The notes beneath the pieces were generated by a model, which worked only from the letters and a program-made list of their open reading frames with translations, ran no database searches and was not told the DNA's origin. From Allomyces arbusculus (Eukaryota; Blastocladiomycota; Blastocladiomycetes; Blastocladiales; Blastocladiaceae): a stretch of DNA of 64,000 bases. Made by a program: the position numbers and the translations under genes. This document shows, piece by piece, positions 21,120-62,048 of the stretch. Position 1 is the stretch's first letter; each line of letters begins with the position of its first letter. The DNA lies in NCBI GenBank assembly GCA_027604705.1, contig JADHYV010000004.1, positions 310,001 through 374,000 on the forward strand. The letters run 5' to 3'.

Positions 21120-21348
21120 GATCGTGCAAGCGGGCGTGTGCGGCAAGTCGGCGGGCGGGGAGAGCGAGATTGCTGGAGACTCGGAGAGAAGCTGCCGCTG
21201 CTGCTGGTGGTGTCGAAGAGGAAAGTGAGGTGGACGGCCTCGCCACTTCGAGCGAGACGCGTGTCGTTGGAGCTGGTGGATGTTGGAGCTCAGCGAACGA
21301 CTCGAGCCATTTTCTCCACATAAATTACGAATGAATCGCGGCGATATA

Positions 21349-24737
<3,389 letters not shown>

Positions 24738-31900: not shown

Positions 31901-34055
31901 CATTTCCATAGTCACGATCAGCGAGATGGGGATCAAGTTGTTGAACAGAACTGGAACAAGCAATGAGACGGCTGGGTCAGTTCAAGATGATCGGGAACAG
32001 GAGAAGAACGCAAAGTGTACCCCAAAACGTCGCGAGATTACTCAAAAACAAGACGACCGGGCTCAGCGACGCCTCGCTGAGGAGCAAGTACCACGCCGTG
32101 GACGTCCACTCGGCCGTCAAGACCTGGGTCCCAACCGAGCACGCGAGCGCCATGAATAATAGCAGCCCACAGAGCACCAAAATCTGACGATTCGTTGCGC
32201 CCTCGAGCGCCGTTGTCTTGATCGGTGCCGCCGACGCATTCCGCATCAGTTTCGTCTCGTGCCCGGTATACACGACTACGCCGCAAATCCAGTGCGTGTT
32301 GCGCAGCCGCGCGCCGCGCAAGAGCACCTGTTTCGGGTCGAGCGCGATCGGCGCGCCGAGTCCATCGATGTGCATCGTGCCTTCGAACGTGTAGAGGGAC
32401 GAGTTGGGCAATTCGCACTCGATCCGACCATGTACGCCCGCCAAGTCGGCCGCGTGCACCCAGTTGGCCGTCTCGGGCCGCGCCTGCTTGATCTTCAAGT
32501 TGGTTTCGCCGTCTAAATTGGCCGTTTCGATGTAGCAGAGTCCATCCTGCTCAGACGAGGCCAGGAGGACCAGATCAGCCGGGAACGACTCGCCATTCTC
32601 GACACGCACAATATCCCCGACCGCCACGTCCTGCCAAACGACCGTGCGCAGCTGCGCGTCGCGCCCGAGCACCTGCACGTTACACTGATTCACTTCGTCG
32701 TCGGCGCGATGCCGGCGCAAATCCTCGGCGATTTCCTTGGCCGCCGTGAACAAGAGCACGACCGTCAGCGGCGTAATCGTGTCGAACCGGTTGGTCGGCG
32801 AGATGCCCGGAATCTGCTGAATGCACGCCGTGAACAGGAAAAACACGTTGGCGTATTTCCCGAACTGCTCGCGCAGAAATTTCGGCAAAAACGACCACGG
32901 CGTGTACTTGGCCGTGGAAATCCCATTGTGCAGGAACGTCGGCGCGTCGTCGGTGCCCGCCAGGTCGGACCGTGCGTGGATCGGGATCGTACGAAACGTT
33001 GGCGCGGGCGTCGATGAAAGGACCGTCGACATGCGCTGCAGCGTGCGCGACAATGTCGCGACCATCCCGCCGCCATAGCCACCGCCACCACCGTTGGCAC
33101 CGCCCGAATCGTGTGTGGGGGACGGGTCGAAGCTCGGTAGGCCCGGAGGCGGCGGGCCAGCAGGCCCATTGTCGTCAATTAGGTCCGGGGCCGTGACCAT
33201 CATCTTGACGTGCAGTGGTCCAGGCGCGACGACGCCCGAATTGGCAGGATCGGCGCCCATCGTGGTCTGGCCGCCCGACGAGGACGACGAAGGCGGGAGC
33301 AGCGGAATTTGCTCGCTCGCGGGCGCGGGCGACGCGGCGCGAGGACCGAGCGCGACGGCGGATGCGGACGCGGATGCACGCGTGGACGCGCCTCGCGGCG
33401 GCGGAGTCGGATTCGCGGCGGGATTCGCGGCGGGGAGCGATGCGGCGGCAGGGACGCGTGCTGGCGAATGGGCCGACGCCTGGCGAAGAGTTGCGGCCGG
33501 TGCTACTAGTGCTGGCGCGGGTGTGGGCGTCGGTGCCGGTGCCGGTGCCGGCGACAGAATCAAGGGCACATCGACCGCGCCCGGGGCGAATTGCGCGTCG
33601 CTGGGCGGCGGGACTGCGGCGGGTGTGCTGCTGGGTAACGTGGGCGGTTGAGGAGCGTTGGCGACGTTTGGCGACAGCGTGGGCGACACTTGCAGTTGCG
33701 GACGCGCCACCCCATCATGGACAGCGTCACGCGCACGCCTCTCACCTGGGGCCGACTCGGCCGTTCGATCCAAAAACGACGATGCGGCGTGCACTACAGG
33801 CTCGACTTCGTGCGACGTGACAGGCTCGGCGATGCGGTCGCTCTCCACCGTGATGCATTCGTGCGGCTCGCCGGTGGAGGGAGTTGCGTCCTGGCCGAGC
33901 TGGTCGTCGCGGCTTGAGGGCAAGGTCGGCGGGGGAAACAGCACCACATCACCAAACGCGTCGTGATCGGAGTTGTCGATATCGAGCTGCACGACGGCGC
34001 CCGCCGTCGACACGAGCGGGCTGCCGGTGCGTGCGGGGCGACGCGCAGCGGGCAT
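28973..34055 (-). CDS. P4-type phospholipid flippase, Drs2/ATP8A-like
   Basis: Four exons (34055-32021, 31950-30230, 30166-29933, 29860-28973) join in phase to 1,625 residues. The enzyme moves aminophospholipids to the cytosolic leaflet of Golgi/endosomal membranes. Residues 1 to about 370 are low-complexity and far longer than usual. The canonical part starts near NGISTAKYTPWSFLPKFL and continues with EQFGKYANVFFLFTACIQQIP and SPTNRFDT, the actuator motif DGETNLK, and the phosphorylation motif DKTGTLT with the acceptor Asp near residue 739. Nucleotide-binding KGADNVIL and TGDRQETAINIGFSC, the hinge GDGANDVSMIQAAHIGIG and the C-terminal membrane helices are present. All catalytic motifs are intact. 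A Ser/Pro-rich cytosolic tail follows the last helix. A Cdc50-type partner is expected but is not in this window. Confidence 0.94.
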
Positions 34056-34727
34056 TGCGGGGCTGGCGAGCGGAGCAAGCAGACAGGATGGAGCAATGGT
34101 GAAGCGCACGGTCTGCAAGCAGCACGTCCCCACAACCTCTCAAGAGCGTCGGCTTTCGGTCCCGTGCATCGGTTCTCGCCTTGCGCGGCCTCACGACGCC
34201 GTCTGCGCCGCTGTGAATGCAACGATGCGGCAAGTCGCGCTCCACGCCAGAGTCGGCCGGAGCAGGTGACGGTTGCGTGAGTTGGAACAGGTTGGCGCGC
34301 TCCGTGCACACCTCTCGCTTGGCTGAGGGTGGATGGTGACTTGTCAATGGATGAGCTCGAACGCGCTGCGGTGCGCTGGCCCACCACCACCGCGGCCACG
34401 TCGCCTTCCAGATCACTCTCAGCCCTTGCGCGGCAACGCGGTCGGACGGCGCGCACGCGGTTGGCTGTCGCGGTTGCGTTGTCTGGTGGCTGTTCCTCAG
34501 CAGCGCCGCACCTGCGACATTTAAGAGCAGGAAGAACAAAGAAGCAGGGCGAGCTGACACTCCGGCGCGCAGCAAGAATAAAACAAAATGCGATACCGGC
34601 TTTACATTCCATGGCCGCGGCGCGGCAGCACAGCGACGCGTCACCGGCAACGGCAGGTCGGTCAACAAGGTACAGGGTAAAGGCAAAGATGGAGAAAGGG
34701 CGCGGTTCCTTGACCGCGACGCTGCTC
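34056..34727. other. Intergenic region between NEDD8 stop and flippase start
   Basis: About 670 bp upstream of the flippase ATG and downstream of the NEDD8 gene on the same strand. It contains the flippase promoter and the NEDD8 3' flank. No further coding exon could be supported by third-position GC or motif. Confidence 0.45.
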
Positions 34728-35904: not shown

Positions 35905-38900
35905 ATGGCCGCGCTGCCCCCTGTAGCCGTCGCCGCTGTGCCCCCCGCCGGCCCGCCCACGGGCCGCGCGCTCGTCACGCACGCGACCTCGGTCCTCGAA
36001 CAGCTCATCTGTCACGCTCTCGACCAGCCGGCGCCCGTCAATGTCGCCGCGCTCGTACGCGACCGGCTGTGGCCGTTGACTGAGCCCGCCTACACGGTCC
36101 CGGCCGCGTCGCTCGCGCGCTGCATCCACGCCATGACCTGGCACGTTGTCTGGTCGACGGCGCCCGTCGCCATCAAGGAAACCTCGGTCGGCGACCCGGC
36201 GCGGTTCGTGCGGTTTGCGCTCATCTACCTCGACGCGCTGCTGGCCTGGTGCGAGCTCGACACAGAGCGCGCCGTGGCCGCCGCCGCAGCGGCCGCGAAA
36301 GGCGACGACGATGCCATGGAGGTTGTAGACGGCGCGGCACCGGCCGTGCCGGAGAGTTTGTGCGAGGCAATGCCGGGTGGGGCCGATGGAGGTACCGATC
36401 GACCGTGCTTGATGGAGACGCGATCATGTTGCTCACAACTGGATCCATGGTTCTCTAGAACACACGCTCTTCGTGGATCGCTTTGCCGACGTGCTCGACA
36501 TGACGCCGACGGGCCACTGCGCGCGCATCCTACAGTTTCTGCTTGACCACGTTCCGCAAGTCATTAGCGTCCGTACCCGCGCTCCCTCTCTCTGATCTCC
36601 ACTGGCCTCATTTCCAGCATCTTGACCACAATTGTGTTTGTGCTATCAGGCGGTCATCCGCGAGACTTCGGCGCAGCTGGATTTCAGCAAGCTGGTCAAG
36701 AAACAGCTGCTTGCCGTGTTCACGTCGGTCTTGCGCCGGTCCCCATCGCTGCTCTACCCCGACGTGGTCTCGACGATCCTGCGCATCAACACGCTCATGT
36801 CGAGCGTCGACGAATTGAGCGGTATGCATCGACCTGGACGTCGACCCTGAACCTGTCTGAATCATATCTGAGACCGCCCCTCCCCCGTTCTCTTAGCTCT
36901 GAACCCGCGCGCCGTGCCGAACCTCGACAACATCACGCACATTGACACCGACTTACCGCGCAGTACGGGCCCCGACGACGCGCAGCTGCAGCACCGCAAC
37001 CAGTTCTACCAGCGGCTCTGGCGGCTGCAGCAAATGCTGCAGGATCCGCGGCAGTTCCTTCGCGCGCAGAATCCGGCGCCACTCAACGAGTTTTTGGCCA
37101 ACGTGGAGGAATGCGTGCACGAATTCGCCAAGATCGCGCACGATCTCAAGGAGCATTTGCGCAACCCGAACAAGGACAAGCTCATGGGCGGCGGCAACGA
37201 CCAGCACAGCGCGGGCACGGCGCACGATTTCTTCGTGTCCAAGTTCTTGACGAGCCGTGAATTGTTTGACGCGCAGGTACCGACTCGCGCTTGACCGCGA
37301 TCCGCGCGTTTCCTCGCATCTGACGCGCGAACCACCAGATCACCGACCCGTATTTCCGGCGGCAAGTGCTCGTGCAGTTCTTGCTCGCGTTCGAAGTGCT
37401 GCAATTCTACTCGGACGCGCACGTGCGCGACCTCGAGCCAGCGTTCTTGACGGTCAAGCGCAACAAGAACATGCTGCCGACCAGCGGCACCACCTACGTG
37501 ACGTCCGACCAGGTACGCGCGGGTCCCACTCATTCACCCGCCCACCCATCCGTCCAATCGAACGAAACCGTGCAGTCCATTTTTTGTGTGCCAATCGCTC
37601 ACCCCGTCCCACCCGCCGCGCATAGGTCCGGCACGTGAAAACGCTCCGCACGCGCATCGCTGTCCTGCTCTCGCGGATTCCGCCGAACGGACTCGACTTC
37701 CTCGAGACCGTGCTGCAGCTAATCCGGCATGAGGGCATGTGGGTGAGTATTTGACTCGTTGCGCCCCTCGCAGGGCGCGGTCACTGACGCCGCGCTCGCA
37801 CCGACAGATGGACTGGAAGGCCAAGTACTTTGCCCCGAAACTCAAGATGCCCGTGCCGCCACTCGCCGCGCCCACGGATGTCGCGCGCATCGACCTCGTG
37901 GCCGCGGCCGACATGCCGCGATATCTCGGGCACCCGCGGCTCAACGAGCTGTGGAACGAGGAGCACGAGGACGTGCCGAGCGAGTACGTTCCGCGTTTTC
38001 CTACTCATCCCGTAATGCTCATGGCTCACTCCTCCCTTCTCCACCCACCGACTAGTCTCCCGCCCATCGACCTCGCGCAATGGGTCGCGCAAGTCGAAGA
38101 TGAGGCGCGCGGCGACTTGGACGCCGAGTACCAGCTGTCACGCAAGGAGCAGTGGAAGTGGCAAACGTTCCGGCTCTACGTGCAGCGGCATTTCGCGACC
38201 ATGACCAAGCCCACTACGCCGTACCCGATTCGGGATCTCGTGCGCCGCTCGTTAGGGCAGCCGGATATGACCGACGCCGAGCGCGAGGAGGAGGAGGAGC
38301 GCCGCCGCGAGCGCGAGGAAATGGAGCGCGAAATGGAGGAGGAGCGCGCGAGGATGGAGGCCGAGGCCGAGGCGTTGCGCAAGGAGCGCGAGGCGAGGAT
38401 GGTGGAGAAGCGGCGGAGGGAGGAAGAGGAGCGGAAGCGGGCCGAGGAAGCGAGGGTCGCGGCGGAAGCGGAGGCGAGGAAGAAGGCCGAGGAGGAGCAG
38501 AGGGTGCAGGAGGAGGAACGACACAAGCACGACGAGGAGCAGCGCAAGATGCAGGAAGAGCAACGACGGATCCAAGTGGAGCAGCGCCGAGTCCAAGAGG
38601 AGCAGCGTCGGGTTCAAGACGAGCAGCAGCGCAGGCCCGCCGAGGACCGGCCCAAGGCCGAGGATCTTCGCGCCATGCTCCTCGAAAACGACCGGCGCAA
38701 GACGAACGAGGATCGGCCCAAGGCCGACGACCATCGTGCCAAGCTCGAAAACGATCGGCACAAGGACGGCGACGCGCGCCCAGCCGAGATTCAGCTACGC
38801 CGCGACCAGCCACCCGGCAGCCAGCGCCCTGATGACTCGCCGCGTCCCATCGAGTTCACCCTGCACCGCGACCAACCGGGTCCCGCGCGGCCCGACGACG

Positions 38901-39780
38901 TTCCACGCTCAGACCTGATGCGCGGGCGCACCGAAAGCACGCCGGTGCTCCCGGCTGAAGGACCCGCGCCGGCAGCACCACCCCTCTCAGACCGCCGTGC
39001 GTCCGGCCGCCGTCGTGGCGGCAGGGACCGTCGAGGTCGGTCGATCAGCCCGCCGCCACCGCCGCAACAGGCAGCATCGTCGGCGGTCCCAAGCTCGCTC
39101 GACCAGCGGCTCGGGTTCCACGCTGGAGCTCCTGCGCCGCAGCCAGCAGCGCCGCCCGCCGCGTATAATCACCACCAGAACCAGCACCAGCACCACCAGT
39201 TTGACCGGCGGCCCGCGTCATCGGACGGCCGCGAGCGCCGGTGGGACACGGCGCCGACGGCGCCGACCCCACCGCCGCCGTCCGCTTCGCAGGGTCCGCC
39301 CACTTTGCAGGGTCCATCTGCGCAGTCGGGCTCGTCGCGACTGTTCCAGCGGCTTACGGCGCCGGCGAACAAGGAGGATTTTGCTTCGCAGGGGTCGCGC
39401 AGCCGCGGCGGGAGTAGCAACGCGGGTGGCGGGTTTGGCGATCGCGATGACCGCGGGCCGCGCGAAGATGACCGGTACGGGCGTGGAGATCGCGACGGCG
39501 ATCCGCGTGGCGGTGCCGGCGGGGGCGGAAACGGGGACCGCGATTGGGACCGAGACCGCAACGACCGCAGTGACCGCGACCGAGATCGCGACCGGAATGA
39601 CCGCGATCGTGGAGACCGGGTACGAATTTTTTTTCATTACCTCTTTGGTCCTGATTGCGATCAGAAAGCTGACCCCATCCTACATCGGCATCACCACTTC
39701 TCTTGCATCCCCGACTACAGAAACGTGGCGGCCGCAGCGACCGTGCTGACGAACGCAGCAAACGGCGTCGCGCGGGATAA
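35905..39780 (+). CDS. THO complex subunit 1 (Hpr1/THOC1) with a long charged C-terminal extension
   Basis: The start is an ATG at 35905; there are eight or nine exons, the last 39721-39780 ending KRRRAG. The THOC1 fold is recognised by FVDRFADVLDMTPTGHCARI, FSKLVKKQLLAVFTSVLRRS, LLYPDVVSTILRINTLMSSV, HRNQFYQRLWRLQQMLQDP, and especially TDPYFRRQVLVQFLLAFEVL with the following IPPNGLDFLETVLQLIRHE and a tryptophan-rich NELWNE block. THO packages nascent mRNA and couples transcription to export. From about 38280 the protein becomes a long Glu/Arg coiled coil (EEERRREREEMEREMEEERA), then Pro/Gln-rich and Arg/Asp/Gly-rich tracts ending in RD dipeptides. That extension, roughly 450 residues, is not part of the usual THOC1 fold. 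The charged tail could be an RNA-binding RGG/RD module (inference). Confidence 0.85.
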
Positions 39781-40816
39781 GCATGCCGGTGGCGAGCGAC
39801 TCGCAACCGTCTCGGTGTCCTTTTTTTAGCGGCTTGTGTTCATTTTTGTTGTTTTTGGTTGCGTGAAGCGCTCACAAAAAGGGGGTGAAAACCCACACAA
39901 AAAGCGCTTCGTCAAAGAGGTTAAAAACGCCTCATGCACGTGATTCATGAGCGCAAAAATGCGCTGGAAACCTCGCCAAGAAGCGCAAACCGTGGGAGCG
40001 CATGCCCGCTTCCGTGTGGGTTTGCTGGCCCAGGAGGAAAAGGAGGTTCTTTCGGCGGGACCGATCCGGTCGCTCACACACCCCCACCGCATCGCCCCGA
40101 ACGTCGACTGGCGTCGGCCCACTCCCACCGCGCCAGCCCGCTCTGTCCAAGTTGGACCCCTGCCCGCGCTCGCGCCCGCTGCCACTGCCTCGCCCATCCA
40201 GCGCCGCCGCGCCCTGGACGCTGCCCAACCGACGCCGACGACAACGACAACAGCAACGGCAACGGCGCTGACGACGACGTTCTGCTGCGGTTTTCGATCC
40301 CGCTTGGCTCTGTTCGGGTGCGTTCCCGTCATGCTTTTGCCATGTTGGTTTTTTCGCCGCCGGAAACGCCACTTTGCCAATCTTGGGAACTCGTCATTCG
40401 CCGCGCCCTGCCAGACCAATCGCTGACGCGTGTGTCTCCCGCTCCTGTTTTCTCGCTTATCATGATTTTGTTGACCACCATTCCGTCGTGCTGCAATCTG
40501 CTCGACGCGTTTGTTGCCATCCGCCCTGGCCCTCGACCATGGTTCCCGGCCATCTGCAACGCGCTTCACCCCATCGCTCGCCCTTTCGCAATTCCTCCGC
40601 GCCACGACCGTGGTCGCGATCCCTGTCCTCTCCCGTCTGCTCGCTCCACCGCCTGCGGCACGCACCCGGCAACACTGCGAATTGAACCATGATCAGACAC
40701 GCCCGGTCGACGTGACCACCTCTCGCCCCTTGGCTTGCCCGTGCTTCTCGTCCTCGCGGCTCGTTTCTACGCGACGTGACGCGACGCGACGCGGCTCGGC
40801 CCCGTTCCCCCTCATC
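39781..40816. other. Intergenic region, no gene recognised
   Basis: About 1 kb between the THOC1 stop and the EPL1 ATG. It holds the 3' flank of THOC1 and the 5' region of EPL1. Long open frames on the minus strand show no motif and no third-position bias. Confidence 0.45.
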
Positions 40817-44102: not shown

Positions 44103-46868
44103 TCTGGTGGCCGTGAATTTGGCGTTTCGGTTGAATTTCTTTCTCCTTTTTTGTGTTTGCTTGCTTTCCGTTCTTCTCATCTTTGGAGTGCCGTGGGCCG
44201 ACCGCATGAACCTGGTCCCACTCTCCACGCGCGAGTAGTGTGCGCGTCGGAAATTCTCTCAATACATCGTGCTCGCTTGATTTATCTAGTGGACTCTCGG
44301 TCGTGTTCATTCTGTAATCAGCAGACAAAAGGCGTCAAAATGCGGAGGTTTGATGGGTGTGCTTGTCTTGTCACCAAGGCTTTCTTGCAATCGCTGGGGC
44401 TGCTTCCATGACGGCGTTCGAAACGTGTGCCACGCCGTCGTTGCCAGTTGCCCAGCGACATGTTCGGTTGATGCATGCCCCGCGACCTCCACTTTGGTCT
44501 CCCCGGGAGGAAAGTCATCGCTGAAGGGCAAGCCGCACTGTCTCATCTTCGAGTGATCTTGTGGAACTTCAGCAAAAAGGTATATCGCATCTTAAGTGGA
44601 GGACGCGACGCGCAGATCTAGAGGAAGTGCGGTCCACTGACACCATAGAGATTGATCGTGGGCGTTTTGAGTCGTTCTGAGTTACTGCAGCCCGGGCGAA
44701 CCCACAAAGGCCAGAGTGGACGCGTCGTTCCATACCTCTCGACCGCGGTTCGGTCGATTTGTCCTTGCCACCGTGTCAACGAACGTTCGCGCTGAGACAA
44801 GAAAACTTGTGACCGCCGTCATCAATGGCCGCGACGCGCGCAATCAGACATGCGCGCATCCCATTCCCTCTCGCCTCCATCGTATGGGTCGATTCCCGAG
44901 AGAGCAACACGCGCTGACAACCGAATCAATTATGGATCATTCAATGATCAGTGAGTGATGCGGGCCTCGCATCAAGCCCAGCGTGTGTCCACTCCAGCGT
45001 GCCAACTTCATTAGGATACCTCCTGCACGACCACGTTCACAGTGAAGCACGGCTTGCGCGCCATTCTCATTGCTCAGCAAGTTGGCGGCCGCCGATTTTA
45101 TGGCAAGACCAGCTCACGGCCGTAACAACCACAGCAACGACAGCTTGCCCAAAAAGCAACACGATGCCCTCGGTTTCTGCGGCGGTGCCAAGATGAAACC
45201 CGTTGGCGAGGACGCCGGATCATGGTTCGTTGAGGTGCTGGCACGCTCGTGTTGGAGGCATGTCCAGGCATGCCACGATCAGGGAGGATTCAGGTGGGTC
45301 ACATCTCATTCCCCTCGCCCAACCGACAAATGCTACCATGACCGTGCGTCAGAGGACACGCGCGGTGCGGAGAGAGTGGTGTGTTGGCAATGCAGCCGTG
45401 ATCATGGCCAGAGGAGCTGATAACAACGCGTCGACGTCCTGCGTGTGCACGAGCTTTTGAATCATTGTCTGTTTGCACCTGTCGTGCGCGCTGAACAGTT
45501 TGCGACGAGTCCACGACGTCGGTCATCGTTGGTTACCGGCCGCCTACCCTCTTTTCTCAAAGACCTACCCGTGCGCTCAACAACGTGCTGCAGTCGGACG
45601 CGAAATCGTCAGTGCGGCAAACTGCTCACCAGCGACGGTGCAAGTCGCGTCTCACATCGACCTGCACCCACGTTGCGAGTGCAAGATCACCGCAGAAAGG
45701 ACTTTTTGTGGCAGCACCGCGCAATCGGGCACGATGCACACCGCAGCGGTGTGCGTGGTCCCCTTGCATTCAAGGACGGTACACGCCGTGTTGCATGCTG
45801 CATGCCGCTGTCCGACCAAATCTTGGCTTTGGCTTCGGCACGTCCATGTGGACGGCGGTGGCAACGTCGAGCATCGAATGTTCACCACCACCACCGTTCA
45901 CCACCACCACCACCGTTCACCAAGACGAAACATGGTGGAGAACGCGTATCGCGGCTGTCGCAAGTAGCAACGCAGCCGCCGTCGTGGATCGTCTTCACCA
46001 ACGCGATCAAACTCGGCCCTGCTCCTCAAGCGACCTGGTACGTGCGCGAGGAGCGCGAGGGGGCCAGTGGCTCGCCAGGGTCCCACTCCGGGTGCCCGAT
46101 GGAATGGCGGGGAGACGACGGGAACACAAGGCAACATCGTGGCACGCGCGCTCGTGCACGAAGACGGCGGAAATGACTTGCCATGACCCATGGTCCGCCC
46201 ATGGTCGACAGGTCCAGCTGCGGGTGCAGCGAATGCATCCTTGGGGCCGTTGGCGATGAAGTCAAACGATGGCAACCGCAGCACGGCCTTCGTTGGAGTT
46301 CCCCAACGACGACGCTTGTGGGCAAAGTTTTCATGGTCTGCTTTTACGACTGCCTCCGGCACGATGATGATCATCCAGCCGCCGCGGTGCGCACCGCAAG
46401 CTGGCCGCGCACGCTCCCCGCCGCGCGCGCCCCCATTGTGCGGGTGGATGCCACCGCAGCAATGGCTCGCTCGCGGCGCCGTCGGGACTCGTCGTCGAGT
46501 CGTTTCGTGTCCCCCACTGTCCCACGCCGTCGGACCATGTTGGCGGTTTGGGTCGCTTCGCGCGCGGTAACTCGGCGCCACACGGGCCTCGCCCACAAGG
46601 TTTCTTGTGACACGGTGAAGGCCTGTGCAAAGCTCGGAAGCAGTGCATTTCCTTTCCGGCTGCGGATGACGGGCAAGCGACAAACCGCTGCAAGCCACTG
46701 CCAGCCTTCACCGCTCGCCGCGACTTTGGCGCTACCAGTGCGCCCTGCAGCAACACTGATCCTTGCTGATCCTGAACGTCTTCCGACCGGCACCCGACCT
46801 GTCATTGTGATCGCGGCCAACGACGAAACGCCCGGCTTTGTGCTCGACAGACGAGTTCTAGCGCACGC
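44103..46868. other. Long gene-poor region upstream of the first repeat gene
   Basis: About 2.8 kb, the longest stretch here without a supported gene. Many open frames exist on both strands (up to about 266 codons), but they overlap one another, show no third-position GC preference and no domain. A 79-codon minus-strand frame at 44546-44307 starts with ATG and looks neutral. A short direct repeat of CACCACCACCACCGTTCAC lies at about 45888-45923. The region probably contains the extended regulatory DNA of the repeat gene. Confidence 0.5.
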
Positions 46869-46884
46869 TATATAAACCGGCCGG
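46869..46884 (+). promoter_or_regulatory. TATA box with GC extension, first repeat gene
   Basis: TATATAAACCGGCCGG lies 84 bp before the ATG at 46953. Fourteen of its first fifteen bases match the element before the paralogous gene at 50.7 kb. TATA boxes are not obvious before the housekeeping genes in this window, so this suggests strong, regulated transcription. Confidence 0.75.
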
Positions 46885-46922
46885 CCCCCCGCCGACGAGG
46901 ACCGGCACGCTTTCGAGCTTCT

Positions 46923-46942
46923 TACCCCCCCCCCCCCCCCCC
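46923..46942. repeat. Poly-C run in the 5' leader
   Basis: An uninterrupted C tract of about 17-18 bases immediately before the start of the first repeat gene, probably within its 5' untranslated leader. Its length may be unreliable. Confidence 0.8.
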
Positions 46943-46952
46943 ACTCTTCACA

Positions 46953-49305
46953 ATGTCGTCGACCTCGGCTCCGGCCACCCCCGCCCCGTGCACCCCGGCC
47001 ACGACCTCGGTACGCTTGCTCCACGCTCGAGAATGCTGCTCTCGACCTTCTCCACCCGAAATCTGACCTGATCGCTTGGTATTTATTCGTTTTCTCTAGG
47101 CCGACGCTGCTCAGCTCCAGGGCCAGATCCAGACCGTCAACGCGTCGTCGTCGGGCCACGGCGCGACCAACGTGACGGCCACCCAAGGGCAGCTGCAGGG
47201 GCAGGAGGNNNNNNNNNNNNNNNNNNNNNNNNNNNNNNNNNNNNNNNNNNNNNNNNNNNNNNNNNNNNNNNNNNNNNNNNNNNNNNNNNNNNNNNNNNNN
47301 NNNNNNNNNNNNNNNNNNNNNNNNNNNNNNNNNNNNNNNNNNNNNNNNNNNNNNNNNNNNNNNNNNNNNNNTCCAGACCGTCAACGCGTCGTCGTCGGGC
47401 CACGGCGCGACCAACGTGACGGCCACCCAAGGGCAGCTGCAGGGGCAGGAGGTCTCGGCCACTGCCGGTCACGGTTCGTCGTCGGTTGACGCCGCTCAGC
47501 TCCAGGGCCAGTTCCAGACGGTCAACGTGTCGTCGTCGGGTCATGGCGCCACGAACGTGACGGCTTCGCAGGGCCAGATCCAGGGCCAGACCGTTGAGGC
47601 TTCGGCCGCTGGTCACCACGGCGCGTCGTCGGTTTCGGCTACGCAGGTGCAGGGCCAGTACCAGGAGATCAACGCGTCGTCGGGCGCCGGCTGCCACGGT
47701 GGCGCCGATGTGCACGTCGCGCAAGGTCAGGCGCAGTACCAGGAGGCCTCTGCCTCGGCACACGGCAGCTCCAACGTCCACGTCTCGCAGGGCCAAGCCC
47801 AGTACCAGTCGGCTGATGTTTCGGCGCACGGCAGCACCAACGTGCACGTTTCGCAGGGCCAAGCTCAGTACCAGGAGATCAACGCCTCTGCGCACGGCCA
47901 CGGCGCGACCAACGTCTCGGCAACGCAATTCCAGGGCCAGCAGCAGTCGATTGACGTCCACGGTGCGTCCGTGAACGCGACGCAGGTCCAGGGCCAGACG
48001 CAGACCGTCTCGGTCTCGGGGTCGTCGTCGGCGCACGCCACGCAGGCTCAGACGCAGCACCAGACCGTCACGGTCACCGCCGACCCGCATTGCGCCCCGG
48101 TCGTTGTCCCCGCCGAGCACTGCACTCCCGTCGTCGTTCCGGCTGAGCACTGCACTCCCGTTGTCGTTCCGGCCGAACACTGCACTCCTATCGTCGTTCC
48201 GGCACCCGCCTGCCCGGCTCCGGTCGTCACGCCAGCCGCGCCGTGCGCTCCCGCTGCCACCCCGGCCGCGCCCGTTACGCACCCTGCTGTCCCCGCGAAG
48301 TACGACGACGGTATGTGGTGGAGCGGCAAGTATGAGGGTGGTAACACTGGTTTCGACGACGGTATGTGGCACGGTGGTGTCTCGACGCACGCCACGCCCG
48401 CCGCGCCGGCCCCCGTCCACACCGCCGACCCGGCTCCGTGCACTCCCGCGCCGGTCCAGGACCCGTGCGTGCCCGTTGTGCCGGCCCCGGCCCCAGCGCC
48501 CCACTGCGCACCGATTGATGTGCACGCGTGCACCTCGACCTCGGTCAACGTTTCGCAGGCGCAAGCGCAGACGCAGTCGGCGTCCGTTTCGGGCCACGGC
48601 TCGGTCAACGCCTCGCAGGGCCAGTGGCAGGCGCAGAACATTGACGTCTCGGGCCACGGCTCCGTCAATGCCTCGCAGGGCCAGTGGCAGGCGCAGACCA
48701 TCGATGTGTCGGCCGGCCACGCTCACGGCAACTCGTCGATCGATCTGTCGCAGTTCCAGTCGCAGTTCCAGCAGCTCAACATTGACGGCCACCACGGCGC
48801 GTCGGTGAACGCCAACCAGGGTCAGTGGCAGTACCAGGATGTCTCGGCGTCGGCGCACGGCCACGCGCACGCTGATGTGTTCGCGCAGCAAGCGCAGGGC
48901 CAGTACCAGACGATCAACGCGTCGGGCAACGGCCACGCTGATGTGTTCGCGCAGCAGGCTCAGTTCCAGGGCCAGGACGTCTCCGTCTCGGCTCACGGCC
49001 ATGGCGCTGATGTGTTTGCTCAGCAGGCGCAGTTCCAGGGCCAGGACATCTCGGCCTCGGCTTCGGGTCACGGCCACGCCGACGTCTTCGCGCAGCAGGC
49101 GCAGTTCCAGACGCAGGACGTCTCGGTTTCGGGTCATGGCAACGCCGATGTGTTCGCTCAGCAGGCGCAGTTCCAGACGCAGTCGCTCGACGCTTCGGCG
49201 CACGGCCACGGCTCGGTCGATGTCTCGGCTTTCCAGGCGCAGGGCCAGGCTCAGTCGGTCGACATCCACTCGGCTGTCGTTGCCCACCCGGCCGGTCTGT
49301 GCTAA
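46953..49305 (+). CDS. Gln/His-rich repeat protein, unknown family (paralogue 1)
   Basis: Exon 1 (46953-47009) encodes 19 residues ending ATTS; exon 2 (47100-49305) encodes the rest, about 680 or more, interrupted by an assembly gap. The protein is mostly irregular repeats of about 16-24 residues with consensus S-x-HG-x-x-NV-x-x-SQ-x-Q-x-Q-x-Q-x-[IV]-[ND]-[VA]-S, for example HGSVNASQGQWQAQTIDVS and HADVFAQQAQFQGQDVSVS. In the middle are four VPAEHCTPVV-like decapeptides (48082-48201), a Pro/Ala linker, and the motif YDDGMWWSGKYEGGNTG with DDGMW (48301-48378). The end reads VDVSAFQAQGQAQ and VDIHSAVVAHPAGLC. There is no signal peptide or membrane helix. Alternating Gln/hydrophobic residues predict stacked beta strands, as in curli-type amyloids or beta-solenoids. 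A structural, self-assembling role is inferred; no family is recognised. Coding is certain: codons are overwhelmingly G/C-ending and repeats stay in frame. Confidence 0.88.
47100..49290 (+). repeat. Tandem degenerate repeats of about 48-72 bp in coding sequence
   Basis: Two blocks (47100 to about 48081, and about 48532 to 49290) flank the Cys/Pro-rich and Trp-rich centre. Units are multiples of three and keep the reading frame. Adjacent units in the last block (ADVFAQQAQFQ five times, with one variant) are nearly identical, indicating recent unit duplication or gene conversion. Confidence 0.88.
47209..47371. other. Assembly gap inside the repeat gene
   Basis: 163 N bases. The 81 bases before the gap (47128-47208) are identical to the 81 after it (47372-47452). 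The stated length shifts the frame by one base relative to the reading frames on either side, so the size is an estimate. The flanking copies may be two true repeat units or one unit placed twice. Confidence 0.95.
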
Positions 49306-50722
49306 GAGGCTCGTCGAGCTTTAGAGCGCGCGTTGCGCCTTTCCAAGCGAGCTGTGCCGTCCATTGAACCCGTTTTGAGCACGCTTGCTTTGGTGGCTGC
49401 CGTTTTCCCCCCCTCATCCCATTTCCGTCTCCCCTGTTTTTTGGTTGCAAGATCTGCATGTAGCCTCATTGATCAGTAATGCATCACTGTATTGATATGC
49501 AATTTGTTGTGCGCGAATTCTTTTCTCACGAGCGCGATGGGTTGTTCTGCCTTGCTTTCCCGACGCTTCGTCGTTGTTAGTCAATATTCTACATTTGCCG
49601 CGGTCGTTGAGCATTAAAAATGACGTCGCGCGCCAGTGGGTGGCGGGCGCGGAGAGGTCGGGTCGCAGGCGGTAGGGAGAAGGCGGTACACGGCAGCTGG
49701 GGAACACGGGATTATTGAATTGAGAAGATGCGCGGCGAGCAGTGGATAGAGATGTGACAAGTTGGGGAGGCGTTGGTCGACCAGACGCCCGCAGCACCGT
49801 GAGCATGGTCGGATTCGAACTGGGGCCTGACGCACAGCCTCGTTCAATGCCCTGAGTTGGAGTGATCAGCCGTCGTTGGCCCGAGCGTCGCGCGAGCCGC
49901 CGCTGGCCGAATCTGAGGACAATTGCGAGCGTTGCGGGAGCCGTCGGGCCGCTGTCCATGGGTGGCCCTGCGACAGCGCTCTTAGTAATTCCTCCTGAAT
50001 CAGGACGATCAGGACGATCAGGACTGCACGGTTCGTGCTTGCTCGCGTGAGCGATCTGCCGTTTTCCGGCACCTCAGAAAATAAGAAACATGATGAATAT
50101 AAGTTTGAACGGTTGAACGAGCAAGCTGACCGCGCCGCGATTACTGTCACCTTCAACCGGCTTCAATGATGCCGCGTGCCGTAAATATGCACGCTGTGCC
50201 AGCACCGGCCACCCTTTCTTCTTCCACCACCATTCGGCATGACGGCGGAGCCCGTGCTGTTATCCAAAGCATTGTGGTGGGAAACGCCGAGATGCGCGCG
50301 AAACCGTTGACAAAACTTCCCGCACGACCTTCCCGCCGGTGGTGTTCATGCACGCATGGCGCCGAGCTTCTCGCCATTGTCATTGCACACCAGCATGCAC
50401 GCCCCCTTCCGTGCAAACGTGCAAGCACTGATCCGTACACCGCTCGATCGTGCACTGGAATCACATCCACCACCACCATCGGCTCAGCGTTTGCTGCGCC
50501 CGCAACCCTGGCCCACGTCGAGTTGTTTCCAGAAGCGTGCGCTGACTTGCAAGTAACGACGATCGGACAGGGCAGACGGCGCGCACCATTGTTTGACGGC
50601 ATCTCCTTGCCGACTTGCACGCAACAATGGAACCATGCTTTGACTGGCGATGCCTATTGTCCCTGTGCACGAGCACGATCGCGACGACCGATCAGCGCGG
50701 TTCGCCCGGGTGTGCTTGCGTC
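49306..50722. other. Gene-poor spacer between the two repeat genes
   Basis: About 1.4 kb holding the 3' flank of the first repeat gene and the upstream region of the second. A tRNA-like TTCGAA stretch near 49810 (minus strand) does not form a T-arm or acceptor stem. Open frames show no domain or codon bias. Confidence 0.5.
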
Positions 50723-50737
50723 TATATAAACTGGCCG
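50723..50737 (+). promoter_or_regulatory. TATA box with GC extension, second repeat gene
   Basis: TATATAAACTGGCCG lies 73 bp before the ATG at 50796 and differs by one base from the element before the first repeat gene. The conserved sequence extends beyond the TATA core into the adjoining GGCCG, suggesting common regulation or a recent duplication of the promoter. Confidence 0.75.
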
Positions 50738-50795
50738 CCGCGCGCCCCCGTCGTCCGCCATCATTACCACAAACTTGCACTCTACTCTCTCCACC

Positions 50796-52407
50796 ATGTC
50801 CACCACGCCTGCTAGCAACCCCACGACTTCGGTACGTGTGTTGTAGGCGACTTTAATGGCAGCAATCTCGCGAGCGTCTCGCAAAAAGCCTCGTTTGCGC
50901 TTATTTCAAGCGCTTTCTGATCCACCGCGTTCTTTTTCCTTCCTCTTGTTGCCTCGACGCGTCGACCCAGCAGCAGCAGATCTCGCACGCGGATCACGAC
51001 CATCACGATCATCACGACCATCACGACCATGATCACCACGATCACGACGACCACGATCACGACCAGCACGATCATGCCGTGCCCGTGACGGCGACACAGG
51101 AGCAGCACCAAGGCCCCGATGCGTCGACGACAGGCACCAGCAGCAGCACGACCACGGAGTCGGCGCAAGCGCAAGCGCAATCGCAGCAGGTGGAAACGAC
51201 GGTTGGCCAAGCAACTCAAGGACAGCAGCAGGATCAGCAGACCGCGGCCGTGTCGGATCATGCCTCCCACGCTGCAGACGCGTCAGAGGCGCAAGCGACT
51301 GCACAACAACCAGCCGCGCCAACCGCGCTGGACGCGCACCACGACCATGACAGTCACGCACATGGCGATGCGGCTGCCACGTCGTCCGTGCCAGCGCCCG
51401 AGGCGCAAGCGCAGGCTCAGCCGTCGACCACCGCTGCCGCCCCGGATGCGCATCACGACCATCATCACGATCGCGCTCACACTGAGCCGGCTGCCGCAGC
51501 GCCCGTAAACGCGACCCCGTCAGACGCGCACGACCACGACGCCATGGGCCATGACCACGCGCACGCTGCCCAACCCACGGCTGCGTCGACCGCCACGTCG
51601 CAACCCGAGGCGCAGTCGACGACGGCAACCTCGACTTCGTCCGACGCGCATGAGCACCACGACCACGACGCGCACACCAATCACACGCACCCGACGGCGG
51701 ATCCGCATGCGACGGCAATGCCCGTTCAGTATGACGACGGGTCGTGGTGGCAAGGGAAGTGGGAGGGCGGCAATACGGGGGTTGACGACGGAATGTGGTG
51801 GCCGGGCAAGTATCCTGGTGACCATCATGACGGGCAGCATCAAGCGAGCGTGGCGCACGATCACCACGCGCACGCAGACGGGATGGCCGGGGACGCTCAC
51901 CACACGCACGCGGGGGAGCCGTCGCATGACGCGCACCCGGACACGGTCGTCTACGCACACCACGACCATGCAGATGCGTCGGTGCACGCCCACCATGCTG
52001 ACGCGGACGTGTGGGCGATGCACGCGACCATGACGACCTACGACGATGGCCAGTTCCATCAACTCGACTTCGGCGGTTGCGACGATGGCCAGTACCACCA
52101 GCTCGACTTAGGTGGCCACGCGCATGGCGCAGATGCATGGGCCTACCAGCACCAAACGTGGCAATGGCAGTCCGCCGATGCTTGGAGCCACACTCACGGT
52201 ACCAACGACGCTTGGGCTCATCAGCAGCATCAGCCCGGCATGGAAGCGTGGGGTCACGATCACGTGGCGGACATGGTCGCACATCAGGTGCCTGTGCAGT
52301 GGACGCCGTTCGATGCAGTCCCGTGTGTCGATGTTTCGGCGTACCACGTGCAAATGCCACAGGTCGACGTGCATTCGGCCATGGCCGCTGCTCCAACGTT
52401 CGTCTAA
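50796..52407 (+). CDS. His/Asp- and Gln-rich protein, unknown family (paralogue 2)
   Basis: Exon 1 (50796-50831) encodes MSTTPASNPTTS; exon 2 (50971-52407) encodes 478 residues, total 490. The intron sits after the same TTS residues, in phase 0, with the same GTACG donor as in the upstream paralogue. Exon 2 opens with a stretch made almost only of His and Asp (HHDHHDHHDHDHHDHD), then Gln/Ala/Thr-rich sequence with scattered DAHHDHD-type clusters. The shared motif reads YDDGSWWQGKWEGGNTG plus DDGMWWPGKY (51730-51813). Two DDGQ[FY]HQLD[FL]GG units follow, then Trp/His-rich sequence. The end VDVSAYHVQMPQVDVHSAM matches the end of paralogue 1. The His/Asp clusters are likely to bind Zn, Cu or Ni (inference). 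No signal peptide or membrane helix is seen and I recognise no family. Confidence 0.85.
50980..51078 (+). repeat. His/Asp codon repeat (CAC/CAT GAC/GAT)
   Basis: About 100 bases of alternating His and Asp codons, with the trinucleotide pattern CAC-GAC varied at third positions. The variation in synonymous codons suggests selection for the peptide rather than simple slippage. Confidence 0.8.
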
Positions 52408-53795: not shown

Positions 53796-54851
53796 ATGGT
53801 CCGCCCCCGCCGCAAGGTTGCGACGCCGCTCAACATCATGGTCCGTCTGCTCTCTTTGCGCAGTGGTCTTGACATTATCTGTGTTGTTCGTCAGAAGAGG
53901 CTCACCTGACTGTGCGCCGCCGTTGGTTGCAAACCATAGGTCTGTGGCCGTGAGGGCGTTGGCAAGTCGGTGTTCCTGCGCACGCTGCTCGCGTCGCTTG
54001 CGCTCAACGGCAAGCTCGTTGACGCGACGCAGGCGACGCCCGTGCCGATTGGCTCGGCCGACACGCGCATCAAGGTGCACCAGCCGGTCGATGTGGATGT
54101 GGCGCCCGGTCTCCGTGTGGCCCTGACGCTTATCGACACCCCCGGGCTCCCGTACTCCGCGTCGGCGACGGGCGATGCCGCGCAGTCCGCGGAGATGGCC
54201 ACGGTCGTGGGCTACATTGAGTCGCAGTTTGAGCGCTTTTTGATTGAGGAGCTCAAGGTCAAGCGTAACGCCAAATCGCACGACACGATGGTGCACGCCG
54301 TGCTCTACCTGCTCCCGCCCATGGTGCCGTTCCACCCGGTCGACTTGGCCGCGATCCAGACGCTCTCGGTTCGCGCCAACGTGATCCCGCTGCTCGCGCA
54401 CGCCGACAGTATCACGAACCGCCAGCTTGAGACAATCAAGGCCGCGCTCTACAAGACGCTCGCCGACACGATGCCGCTGCTCGACTTTGCCACGGCCGAC
54501 ATGGACGGCGACGGCACGATCGACGACGAGGAGGAGGAGCAGTTTGTGGCCGAAATGGCCGAGCTCAAGGGCGCGCTGCCGCTCACGGTCATTGGTGCCG
54601 AGTTCCCGCTGCCGGGCCAGCCCAAGGGCGCGAGCGAGTACCTCGAGATTGACGGCAAGAAGGTTCTTGGCCGTGCCTACAAGTGGGGTGCCGTCAACGT
54701 CGACGACCCGGAGCACTGCGAGCTGCACCGCCTCAAGTTCTTGATCTTCGACTTTGCCTTGCCCGGTCTGCTCGCGAGCACCAAGAACATCCTCTACGAG
54801 TCGTACCGTACCGAGCGTCTCATGGCCCACGCAGGCGGCAAGCAGGCTTAG
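53796..54851 (+). CDS. Divergent septin GTPase
   Basis: Two exons (53796-53840, 53940-54851) give 318 residues. Exon 1 ends TPLNIM and exon 2 begins VCGREGVGKSVFLRTLLAS, so the intron interrupts the typical septin start just before the P-loop. G3 is DTPG (LTLIDTPGLPYS). The septin region FERFLIEELKVKRN followed by DTMVHAVLYLLPP is present. The G4 position is AHAD (LLAHADSITNRQL) instead of the usual AKAD. The septin unique element is clear: YKWGAVNVDDPEHCELHRLK. The protein ends shortly after, without the coiled coil found in many septins, and contains an acidic insert (DGDGTIDDEEEEQF). Septins form filaments at membranes and division sites. The changed G4 and missing tail make this an atypical member, perhaps with altered nucleotide handling. 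Confidence 0.87.
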
Positions 54852-56699: not shown

Positions 56700-59600
56700 T
56701 TAGTGCGCCATGAGCGGCTGCAGCACATCAAACGACCCGGTACCGCCCTCGACCACCTTGCCGACGACAATACGCGCCGACGGCGAGTCGAGCGCGTCGT
56801 GGTCGCCGTAGAGCGTCGCTGACGTCAAGAAACTGCACGTCGTCTCGTACGACATTTGCAGGAATGGCGATGGGTTGCTGTTCATGCCGATGCGGTTGAA
56901 GGGCTTGTACCCGCCCTCAAACGTCATGAAGTCGGCAATCAACGACAAGTGCCGCTTGTCGACGGAAATACCGTAAACATCGAAGACGCCCGCGATTTCC
57001 TTGATAATGGCCGCGCGCGCCGCCTCGACACCGTAGACTTCCAGAATCTGGGCAATGTCGTTGGTGTAGATCGAGTTGACGTCGATCATGTCGGCGTGGT
57101 CCCACATGCCGCGCAGGTTCACACCGTCGGTGCCAATGCGTGCAACCTTGTCGTTCTCCGACTCGTTGACGACCGGGTAGCACCGGTCAATGCCGGTCAT
57201 TTCGTGCAGCACAGTCTGCTTGACGACCTGCTCGACAATCTGGACCATGAGCAGTTTCTTCCACTCGCCTGGCAGCGTGAGCTCGAGCTCGCACCAGGCG
57301 CCCGACTGCGTGTCAAACGAGTAGCCCGTGACAAACGACGAGCCCGCCTTGACTTGGTCCTCGTCCGCGTCGTCGTCGCCCCCACGGTTGCCCGACGCCG
57401 ACTCGTCGTCGCTGCTACTGCTGTCGTCATCGTCGTCCGACGCGAGCGCCTTGCGAATCTCCGCGTCCTCGTCATCCTCCTCGTACGACGCAAACTCCTT
57501 GCGCCGCGACGAGTACTTGGCCGCGGTCGCGTCGCCCTCGTCGTCCGAGTCGTCGTCGTTCGACGCCTTGCGAGCGCCCTTGGACGCGCCACCCTCCTCG
57601 TCGTCGTCGCCACTACCGCGTGCAAACTGCGATGCAAACGACTTGTCGGCCTGCATCGTGATGAGCTCCTCCTCACCTACCTCCTCGCGCTTGTTGGCCT
57701 TCTTGAGGTCCTTGAGAATCGCGAGCTCGAGGCGCTTGACGAGCCGCTGCGCGACCACATTGCGCACGTCGCGCGACGAGATATGGTAAAGCGCGCGGTA
57801 ATCGGCCTCGTCGAACAAGTCGATGCGGATCTTGTACTTGCGCACGCGCCTCAAGCTCTCGCGCGTGAGCCGCTCGCGCACAGTCACGCGCTGTGCAATC
57901 GCGGCCAAGGTCAGTCGCGACCGCTGCTTGCAGAACAAGTCGCGCTGCGCGTCGGTCACGCCTGGCTGCAACGTCAGCGTCATGGCCGGCGTTTTGATAC
58001 TGGCCGAGGCCGTCATGACGATTTCACGCAAACGCGGAATACCGAGCGTCACGTTCTTGGCACCGAACCCGGCGAAATGGAACGTGTTGAGCGTCATTTG
58101 CGTGGACGGCTCACCAATCGACTGCGCGGCCAAGACACCGACGGCCTCACCCGGATCGACGAGCGACTTGAGGTACTTGAGCTTCATGAGCAGCTGGAAG
58201 GTCTTGATCTTGGTCGCATTGTCAAAGTCGGTCTTGTGCTTCTTGTAGAGCACCTTGTCCGGGTTCGACTCCGTGTACTTTTCGAGCGCATCGGCAAACG
58301 TCTCCGACGTGCTGCCGAGGTACCGGTAGGGCGAGAGCTTGGAGAGCGTCGTGTCCGAGTACCCGTGCTTCTTGATCTTCTTGGCGGTCTTGGTCGCAAG
58401 CTCCTCGTCGATCTTGTTGGCGAGCTCGTCCGGCTTGTACCGCGCAAGCAGAGCGTCAATGTTTTCGGCGCAGAACCGGAACTGGCGCAGATGCTTTTGT
58501 TTGGTCACGTCGAGACCGTCCTCGCCGTAGAAGAACTGCAAAATCGACCCGTCCGAGTCACGGACCGTCGCATCGTAATGCACGCGCGCGCCCTCGAGAT
58601 GCTTCATCAGGCAACGCTGCAGGTAACCCGAGCGCGACGTCTTGACGGCCGTGTCGATCAAACCTTCACGCCCGGCCATGCAATGGAAGTAGTACTCTTG
58701 CGGCTTGATCCCCGTCAAGAAACGGCCGGAAATGAACCCACCGGCACGCGCCGACGTGTCAAACGGCACAAACGACGGCAGCGACTTGCCCGAGACCATG
58801 ATGGGCACGCGGCGGCCTTCGAGTTCCTGTTGGCCGAGACAGCACGAAATCTGCGACACGTTCACGTTTGACCCCTTGGCACCGGACACGGTCATAAGCT
58901 GCATACCGTTGGCCGGGAACAGCTTGACGAGACCGTCGGGCAAGCATTTGGAAATGATCGACGACGTAAGCCCGTTCATCTTGCCCTTCATGGCGGCATC
59001 GAGCCCGGCCAGCTTCTCGTCCTCGCGCAAGACCTCCTCGAGCTGCTGCTTGAGCTGCGTCTCGTTGGTCGACTTGGTGTACTCCATGGCCACCTCGTGC
59101 CCAAACGACTGCCCGCCGTTGATCAGGTCGCGGCGCCACTTGTCGCCCTGCTTGGTGAGCAGCAGATCGTCCATGCGGCACGAGAACGCGACCATCTGAA
59201 TGTGCGTCGAGAAGAGGCGCGACAGCGAACCCAGCAAGTGACCGGCCATCTCCGCCCCGTAGAGCTCATACACCGAGTGCACCAAACCGTACGCCGAGGC
59301 ACCAAACTGCGACTTGTCGAGAACACCCGTCATGAGCTCGCCGTTACAGAAGACGACTTGCGCCTCGTCGGCGCCCTGCGGGCCCCAGTACTTGGCACCA
59401 ACGCGCGCCTTGGACGTCAGGTTGAGCGGTGCGAGCCCGTAGCACATGTTGTGCAACAAGATCGAAATCACCTGCTTGCCCGTCCAGAGCTTGCGCGGCT
59501 TCATGACGGCCGGCGGCAACATGCGAATCGGGCCCTTGCGCAGCGTCGCCTGCGGCAGCGACCCAACAAGCAACTGCTGGACCTCGTCGCGCGTCAGGAA

Positions 59601-62048
59601 TGTGTCGCGCGCGCACATGCGCACGCCCGTGACGACATGGTCCTGAATCAAACCGCGCAGCGGCGACCCGTCGGTCGGGACGAGGTACTGGTTGTCGGTG
59701 TTGGCAATCAGGTAGGCCTCGGCGCGCGCGACTTCGTTCTGCGGGAAATGCACGTTCATTTCGTCGCCGTCGAAATCGGCATTGTAGGTGTTGCAGTTGG
59801 CGTAGTGCAGGCGAATCGTCTTTTCGCCGGGCAGGACACGCGCCTTGTGCGCCATAATCGACGGCTTGTGCAGCGTTGGCTGCCGGTTGAGCAGCAGAAT
59901 GTCGCCGTTGCGCAAGTGCCGGTAGACCTTCTTGTTGGTGTGGATCGCATAGCTCGGCTGCGTGCTCGACAGCGTCTGCTGCGGCGTCAGCAACTGCGCG
60001 GCGAGCGCCGCACGCTGCTCGACCGAGAGGTCCGCGAGCGACTGCATCTGCGCGTCCTCGAGCTGGATGTGCGTGGCGCCCGGCCACACGTCGGGACCGT
60101 TGATGACGCTGGCCATGAGTTCCTTGACGTTGTGCCCCGTGACGGGTTCCGGGTAGGTGAGCTTGGTCGCAAACACGGGCGGAATCCCGATTTCCGACGT
60201 CTCGATCCAAGGGTCGGGCGAAATGACCGACCGCGCCGCGTAATTGACACGCTTGCCCATCATATGCTTGCGAAACAGCCCCTCCTTCTTTTCGAGCAGC
60301 TGGCGAATACCGGGCGGCGGCTGCTTGCCCGACTTGGACATGGTCGGGTTCTTGGTCGAATCGAGGAACGAGTTGACGTGGTTTTGCACCGCGAGCCATG
60401 AGTCGTTCACCTGGTAGAGCAGCTGCGACCGACGCTGCCCGTCGGCGGTGCCGTTGGCGAGCTTGAGCGAGTCGCGAATGCGCTCGCACGCCTTGAGCAC
60501 CTCGGTCAGCGCCGTGTTCTGTGCGTGGTCAAAGACCATGTCGCCCATCTTGGATGCCGGACGGAACTTGGTCGGCGGGACGGCGACCACGTCAAAGAAA
60601 AACATGTTGGGCGACGACTTAGCCTGGTAGGCCGCGCGCTCGGTCTCATTGAGGACGAGCGGCACGTCGTAAAAGGTCGAGTGGAAGACGAGGTCGAGGA
60701 ACGGCGCGTCGTTGACCCACAGCAGCTCGAGAATCGTCTTGACGAGCGTAGGGTTCATGTACTCGTGCGTGTTCTTCTTCGCGGGCGTCGCGTCGTTGCG
60801 GCGCTTCTTGCGCGCATCCGCCGTCGCCTCGTCACCGTCCACCTCCATGGCGTCCTCGTCCTCGCTCTCCGATGACGACGACGAGTCCGAGCTCGAGTCG
60901 GACGACGACGACGACGACGACGACTCGTTCTCCCAGTCCTCGCCGCCATTCGCCGCGGGCGCCGCCGGGGCACTGCCCTTGATCTTCGCGGCCAACTTGA
61001 GCATTTCGGGCGCGGTCAGTGGCGTCGCCTGTGCCTTGAGCGCGTCACGCTTGATGAACACGTCGGCGTCGGAGAACGCGAGCCCCTTGGCGCTCATTGC
61101 CACCTGAATTTTGCGCGTGTAGGGCGTGCGGAAAATCTTGACGTGCCCATCGCGGCGCAGCGGCATGGCGTGCGCGCCACAGTGCGAGCACTTCGGGACG
61201 GCTGCCAGGCGGCGCGCCAAGTCCGTGACAATCTCGCGGCGGTATTTGGTGACCATGGTCACCTTGTCCTTGGCGTTCAAGTGCGCCGAGGCCGCGCCGC
61301 CCATGGCAATACTGCCGCGCACGTACTGGTCGATCCGGTCAATCACCGTCTCGGGCGCGAGCTTGGGCACCTTCTTGCCGGACCCAGCAGCGGTACCGTC
61401 CTCGTCGTCCTCCTCGAGCTCCTCCTCGGGCCGGTTGTCCTCCATGGCCTCGTCGCCGTCGTCATCGGCAGCGGCAGCACGCGCGAGGTAGGACGGCACG
61501 TTGGCGTGAGCGTCCGGGCGGTACCCCATGACTTCTTCGAAAATCGACCGATTCACGGCGTCTTCGAGGTTGATCGATTCAATGACGAGCCCGCGGTGCA
61601 GGAGCAGCAGCTTGGCCTTGGTCATGTAGAGCTGCACCTTGCTGAGCCGCAGCCGGAAGCAGAAAAAGCACGTGGCCTTGAGGTACTGGAACATTTGCGG
61701 AAACAGCGTCGTGTTGTAGACCGGCAGCGGCAGGTCGATGTGACCGAAATGGCCGGGGCAGTCGAACGAGCTCAGCGAACAAGTCCCACAGCTACAGGCG
61801 CGCAAATCGTAGTCAGCGTCCGGTCGCAACGCTGTTGAGATCCTCGTCGTGATAAATACTTACTAGGTGCCCTTTTCAAACGGACCGAGCGCTGGGTCAT
61901 AGAGACCGCCGCGGTTCGGGTGGCCAAAGGCATCGAACATGTTGGGGTTCGTGATAGCCTTGACCGAGACGGCACGAATGTCCTCGGGCCGGTAAAACTC
62001 GAACGCGACATTGGTGAGCTGCCGGCCCACCGGCTTGGCAATGTTCAT
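56700..62048 (-). CDS. RPA190: RNA polymerase I largest subunit
   Basis: Two exons (62048-61864, 61791-56700) give 1,758 residues. This subunit forms one side of the active centre of Pol I, which transcribes the large rRNA precursor in the nucleolus. It opens MNIAKPVGRQLTNVAFEFY; the clamp zinc site GTYCGTCSLSSFDCPGHFGH is completed across the intron. The invariant metal-binding loop NADFDGDEMNVHFPQ is intact (about 59742-59785). RQPTLHKPSIMAHK, the bridge-helix region (CMAGREGLIDTAVKTSRSGY) and AAQSIGEPSTQMTLNTFHFAG (trigger loop) are present. Acidic Asp/Ser inserts near 60850-60930 and 57350-57600 match the Pol I-specific jaw/expander regions, being longer than in Pol II. The end DVLQPLMAH is complete. 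The GTF-like Pol I signature and Asp/Glu inserts separate it from Pol II and III. Confidence 0.94.

Follow-up and report, generated by a model that had tools for sequence, protein, structure and literature searches.

Two adjacent genes on the plus strand of the 64-kb window analysed here (the whole stretch of Allomyces arbusculus DNA, with a G+C content of 62%), gene A at 46953-49305 and gene B at 50796-52407, are each read as a short first exon, a small intron with a GTACG donor in phase 0 and one long second exon. In gene A, which runs from an ATG at 46953 to a stop codon ending at 49305, exon 1 (MSSTSAPATPAPCTPATTS, sequence and translation; 46953..47009, 57 nt) is followed by a predicted 90-nt intron, GTACG...TAG (47010..47099), and by exon 2 (47100..49305, stop codon included), which contains an assembly gap. 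Gene B, with its ATG at 50796 and its end at 52407, has a 36-nt exon 1 (MSTTPASNPTTS, sequence and translation; 50796..50831), a predicted 139-nt intron, GTACG...CAG (50832..50970), and an exon 2 (50971..52407, stop codon included) that encodes a His/Asp-rich acidic protein. These splices are read from the DNA, and both genes appear to need them: in each exon 2 the first in-frame Met lies well inside the protein, so that neither long frame has a start codon it could use by itself. The TAG of the gene A intron acceptor is, in addition, an in-frame stop directly before exon 2, which makes splicing from a short first exon the natural interpretation. The exon plan described in an earlier note on this DNA, namely a short exon 1 ending in TTS and a phase-0 GTACG donor, is seen in both genes.

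The pair also has a common core promoter, CTATATAAACYGGCCG, found in the window at genes A and B only. The element of gene A (CTATATAAACCGGCCG, 46868..46883, plus strand) and that of gene B (CTATATAAACTGGCCG, 50722..50737, plus strand) differ by a single base, as the earlier note had it, and they are the sole two matches in 64 kb when up to three mismatches are allowed, against an expectation of 0.15; two matches occurred in none of 100 shuffles. In both genes the distance from TATA to ATG is approximately 75-85 nt.

The first repeat array of gene A is interrupted by a 163-N assembly gap (47209..47371), whose flanks overlap exactly over 81 nt and differ in reading frame. The exact overlap suggests an unresolved or false gap in the repeat. 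Owing to this overlap and frame change the length of the gap is unreliable: additional repeats may be concealed in it, or there may be no true gap at all, and all repeat counts for gene A are minimum counts. Antisense to the gene, a 727-residue open frame (47137-49320, minus strand) mirrors the repeats and is probably a by-product of these and of the high G+C content.

Elsewhere in the window lie several features of separate interest. A septin frame (53940-54848, plus strand; Pfam 1.9e-48) carries a canonical-looking EF-hand calcium loop, DMDGDGTIDDEE, with a weak Pfam EF-hand match (E 0.0024); the loop aligns with an acidic DCDSDEDED stretch of the best-matching solved septin. For the large subunit of RNA polymerase I, encoded on the minus strand at 56703-61859, the fission and budding yeast chains give 1639 and 1466 bits, respectively, and the human one 1140 bits, which places it closer to fungal than to human sequences. 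A predicted tRNA-Thr (AGT; 33474-33555, plus strand) is antisense within a minus-strand P4-ATPase frame (31980-34139), ahead of the first Pfam domain of that frame. A 698-residue open frame (37733-39826, plus strand) matches nothing in Pfam at E up to 0.01, and the frame at 20388-21638 (minus strand) matches the Pfam family BSP, 'Peptidase of plants and bacteria' (E 7.3e-46), a name unexpected in a fungal window.

Judged from their sequences, A and B are old tandem paralogues under protein-level selection. One link between them is a 31-residue YDDGxWW motif, located at 48286..48378 in A (AVPAKYDDGMWWSGKYEGGNTGFDDGMWHGG) and at 51715..51807 in B (AMPVQYDDGSWWQGKWEGGNTGVDDGMWWPG), both on the plus strand. 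It is identical at 22 of 31 positions (E=5e-13), with no equally good match in 1000 shuffles, and B has extra DDGQ[FY]H copies at 52042 and 52081; DDG-x-aromatic motifs number four in B and two in A. Between the two copies of the shared motif pS is 0.87 and pN 0.21 (pN/pS 0.24, with synonymous sites saturated), and this combination of saturated synonymous sites and limited amino-acid change points to an old duplication maintained by selection on the protein. The C-terminal VDVSA...VD[IV]HSA endings align with a score of 55 (shuffle maximum 35) and the regions downstream of the motif with 154 (shuffle maximum 99); upstream of it the result is less clear (167, shuffle maximum 159). Convincing similarity was not found more than 120 nt upstream of the genes, in the introns or in the 3' regions. 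The tandem relationship proposed in the earlier note, together with its Trp/Gly/Asp motif and C-terminal ending, is thus borne out by motif, C termini, flanking similarity and common promoter. Its further claim that the bodies have diverged is too simple, as similarity extends to both sides of the motif. A profile of the gene A repeat matches the body of B no better than it matches shuffles. For this reason we do not claim the same repeat for B: on sequence grounds B is like A in motif, ends and general similarity, not demonstrably in the repeat, and a fold common to both is unproven.

The body of A, previously described as alternating Gln, is built from an exact repeat, x-V-x-A-x-Q-x-Q-x-Q-x-Q-x-V-x-A, present in at least 22 copies (21 after the gap and one before) with GHG turns between them. 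The earlier note speaks of alternating-Gln repeats; it missed their precise form and the assembly gap. The spacing within each array is 19-26 residues, with a defined period of 22/24 residues. The first array (47374..48081) holds 10 of these Gln-ladder repeats, a further one lying before the gap, and is followed by a central Pro/Cys/His linker (48082..48516), predicted to be disordered, which contains the YDDGxWW motif and four HC[AT]P[VI]VVPA units; the second array (11 repeats) and the C terminus occupy 48517..49302, all on the plus strand. The repeat core is gapless, with the consensus x-[VI]-x-[AV]-x-Q-x-Q-x-Q-x-Q-x-[VI]-x-[AV]: all 21 post-gap repeats align over 16 positions without gaps and have Q at positions 5, 7, 9 and 11, the last of which was not part of the pattern used to select the repeats. 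A has 63 Q-x-Q pairs where shuffles have 13 (z=15), and it has fewer adjacent QQ than shuffles do; a His is found at position -4, in the GHG turns, in 14 of the 21 repeats.

Conservation of every second residue over 15-16 residues indicates beta strands, and selection on the repeats is specific to one face. With pS at approximately 0.6, near saturation, on both faces, pN/pS is 0.21 on the conserved face and 0.96 on the other. Since the selection pattern fixes some positions of the conserved face, columns outside the pattern were tested separately, and these gave values of 0.49 and 1.0, the same direction but weaker. AlphaFold2 is able to build solenoids from repetitive sequence. For the second array, given an alignment that consisted of self-repeats only, namely the first array and its fragments, it predicts a parallel beta-solenoid in which most repeats contribute two strands (pLDDT 79.1, pTM 0.80). 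For the whole of exon 2 it returns two beta arrays around a disordered linker that holds the motif (pLDDT 61.3, pTM 0.45). Foldseek gave no significant fold match (best E 0.11), the weak matches being mostly to beta-helix proteins, and nothing significant among viral models (best E 0.043). With VIA-align, parallel beta-helices came out on top, at a best Z of 18.7 (rmsd 3.0 over 237 residues), a score to be read in the light of the ease with which repeats reach high Z.

Several known systems invite comparison with A. Curlin repeats are 23 +/- 5 residues long, follow the pattern N-x-Psi-x-Psi-x-Q and space their Gln residues as QX10Q (PMC10192328). As in CsgA and CsgB of curli, the repeat of A spans about 22-24 residues, its turns contain Gly, and one face would carry ladders of Gln together with hydrophobic pairs; the model of the second array predicts two beta strands for most repeats, the number also given for curli. 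Unlike these subunits, A places four alternating Gln in the middle of the repeat with Val/Ala outside, and its N terminus does not resemble a signal peptide by hydropathy. The amyloid-kernel patterns X6QX10Q and NX5QxG, taken as regular expressions from PMC10192328, occur nowhere in A, and Pfam curlin is not among the hits of A or B at E up to 1. Membership of the curli family was rejected on these grounds, the curlin spacing and profile both being missing, and curli is the closest working analogy to A. The overall fold predicted for A resembles that of parallel beta-helix proteins such as phage tailspikes and polygalacturonases (Z up to 18.7 against the model), from which A differs in its far more regular rungs, in an identity of mostly below 10% and in showing no sign of an enzyme domain.

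Searches for relatives covered collections in which eukaryotic genomes and proteomes at large are not included, so that absence from them says little, and the family may be named elsewhere as a hypothetical protein. Within that scope, viral contigs yielded no relatives with the C-terminal half of A or the motif alignment, genome contigs none with the motif and phages none by tblastn; NCBIfam and PHROGs gave no useful match for A or B. PDB sequences likewise gave no relatives, a single weak match to a DARPin (E 0.012) being judged to be chance. In Pfam, the second array of A scores 36.6 bits against DUF2807 (PF10988, putative auto-transporter adhesin, head GIN domain; cut-off 24.2); the first array scores 12.5 bits, and as the reversed second array still keeps about half of the score (18.6 bits), the match is partly driven by pattern. 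The statement in the earlier note that no known family could be recognised therefore holds for NCBIfam, PHROGs and the PDB sequences, and is qualified by a DUF2807 match to A that is formally above the cut-off; apart from DUF2807, none of the curated families fits. The literature consulted on Blastocladiomycota and Allomyces and on Gln- or His-rich proteins has nothing on the pair, nor has a Blastocladiella EST paper.

A contains 14.5% Gln, 46 His and 13 Cys, with Cys residues close to each terminus as well as within the linker. The 490 residues of B include 76 His (15.5%) and 60 Asp (12.2%); HD/DH dipeptides number 44 against 18.7 expected, and the N-terminal region has a DHDHHDHH run. With such a composition the His/Asp clusters of B may bind metal. 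Lys and Arg are nearly absent from both proteins, with 2 Lys and no Arg in the approximately 700 residues of A and 2 Lys and 1 Arg in B, and all four Lys lie within or directly adjoining the shared motif.

A structural role for the pair is likely, and we give a probability of about 0.45 to the reading that A and B supply the two parts of a single self-assembling protein material. Briefly, the two arrays of A would fold into two parallel beta-solenoids with one rung per repeat, and stacking of the conserved V-A-Q-Q-Q-Q-V-A face would form Val/Ala ladders and four Gln ladders, the GHG turns setting His in line along one edge of the rod. Such a rod would be stable and able to add to another through its open ends, and the flexible Pro/Cys/His linker with its Trp/Asp motif would join rods, allowing A to bridge or to polymerise end to end; the linker Cys could act as joints and the His as metal or pH sites. 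For the body of B, with its His/Asp clusters and hardly any Lys or Arg, we envisage binding of divalent metal or a pH-dependent change of charge, by which B would cross-link the A scaffold or control it. Co-expression, co-assembly and metal binding of A and B are inferred, as is their place, either inside the cell or reached without the classical secretory route. The self-assembling, metal-binding structural material envisaged in the earlier note fits the beta-solenoid predicted for A and the His/Asp clusters of B, its metal-binding part being read from composition.

The same note had thought of a zoospore, cyst or sporangium coat, which finds no support here. Hydropathy shows no N terminus resembling a signal peptide in either protein (the maximum 10-residue window in the first 40 residues is 0.18 for A and -0.67 for B) and no membrane segment (highest 19-residue window 1.32), which makes a classically secreted coat unlikely; with a TATA element so close to the ATG, there is also little space for an overlooked 5' exon that could encode a signal. 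An extracellular coat or glue of these stages, exported unconventionally, is a doubtful alternative, in spite of the silk-like, His-rich composition, the placement of Cys in A (towards either end and within the linker) and a TATA promoter of strong consensus type that the window has nowhere else. Mussel byssus, worm jaws and squid suckerins combine His-rich and beta-sheet segments in load-bearing materials. Those proteins differ from A and B in being secreted and of animal origin, and the likeness is one of composition (for the byssus, see the review PMC6477608).

It is similarly unlikely that the pair is a metal or histidine store, with B as a soluble zinc, copper or nickel buffer and A as a scaffold or second store, and no material function. 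The His and Asp content of B, its DHDHHDHH run and the His and Cys of A would suit such a store, which nevertheless does not account for why residues in A alternate so exactly in a beta-strand pattern or why selection there falls on one face. Less probable again are intracellular Gln-rich regulators assembling into condensates or in a prion-like manner: the Gln content of A, its disordered linker and the lack of a signal peptide would suit them, but Pfam recognises no domain for binding DNA, RNA or protein, and the repeats have an ordered build, their dearth of adjacent QQ being unlike polyQ. Functionless drift of low-complexity expansions, to which the biased composition and repeats perhaps still duplicating (the exact overlap at the gap) might point, is very improbable given the face-specific purifying selection in A, the constrained motif and open frames that span 490-700 residues, gap aside.

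Returning to the two-component material, a more specific and more tentative version is that it is particular to this lineage: a Gln-ladder beta-solenoid filament (A) made in the cytoplasm, whose assembly the His/Asp paralogue (B) would govern in response to metal or pH, with a common specialised promoter driving both, making the pair an independently arisen eukaryotic counterpart of curli. As Lys and Arg are nearly absent, A and B would be almost invisible to trypsin-based proteomics, however abundant. If the reading is right, A would represent a new and simple filament design, with 22-24 residues per rung, four ladders of Gln and His along one edge, and B may serve as the metal or pH switch of that filament.
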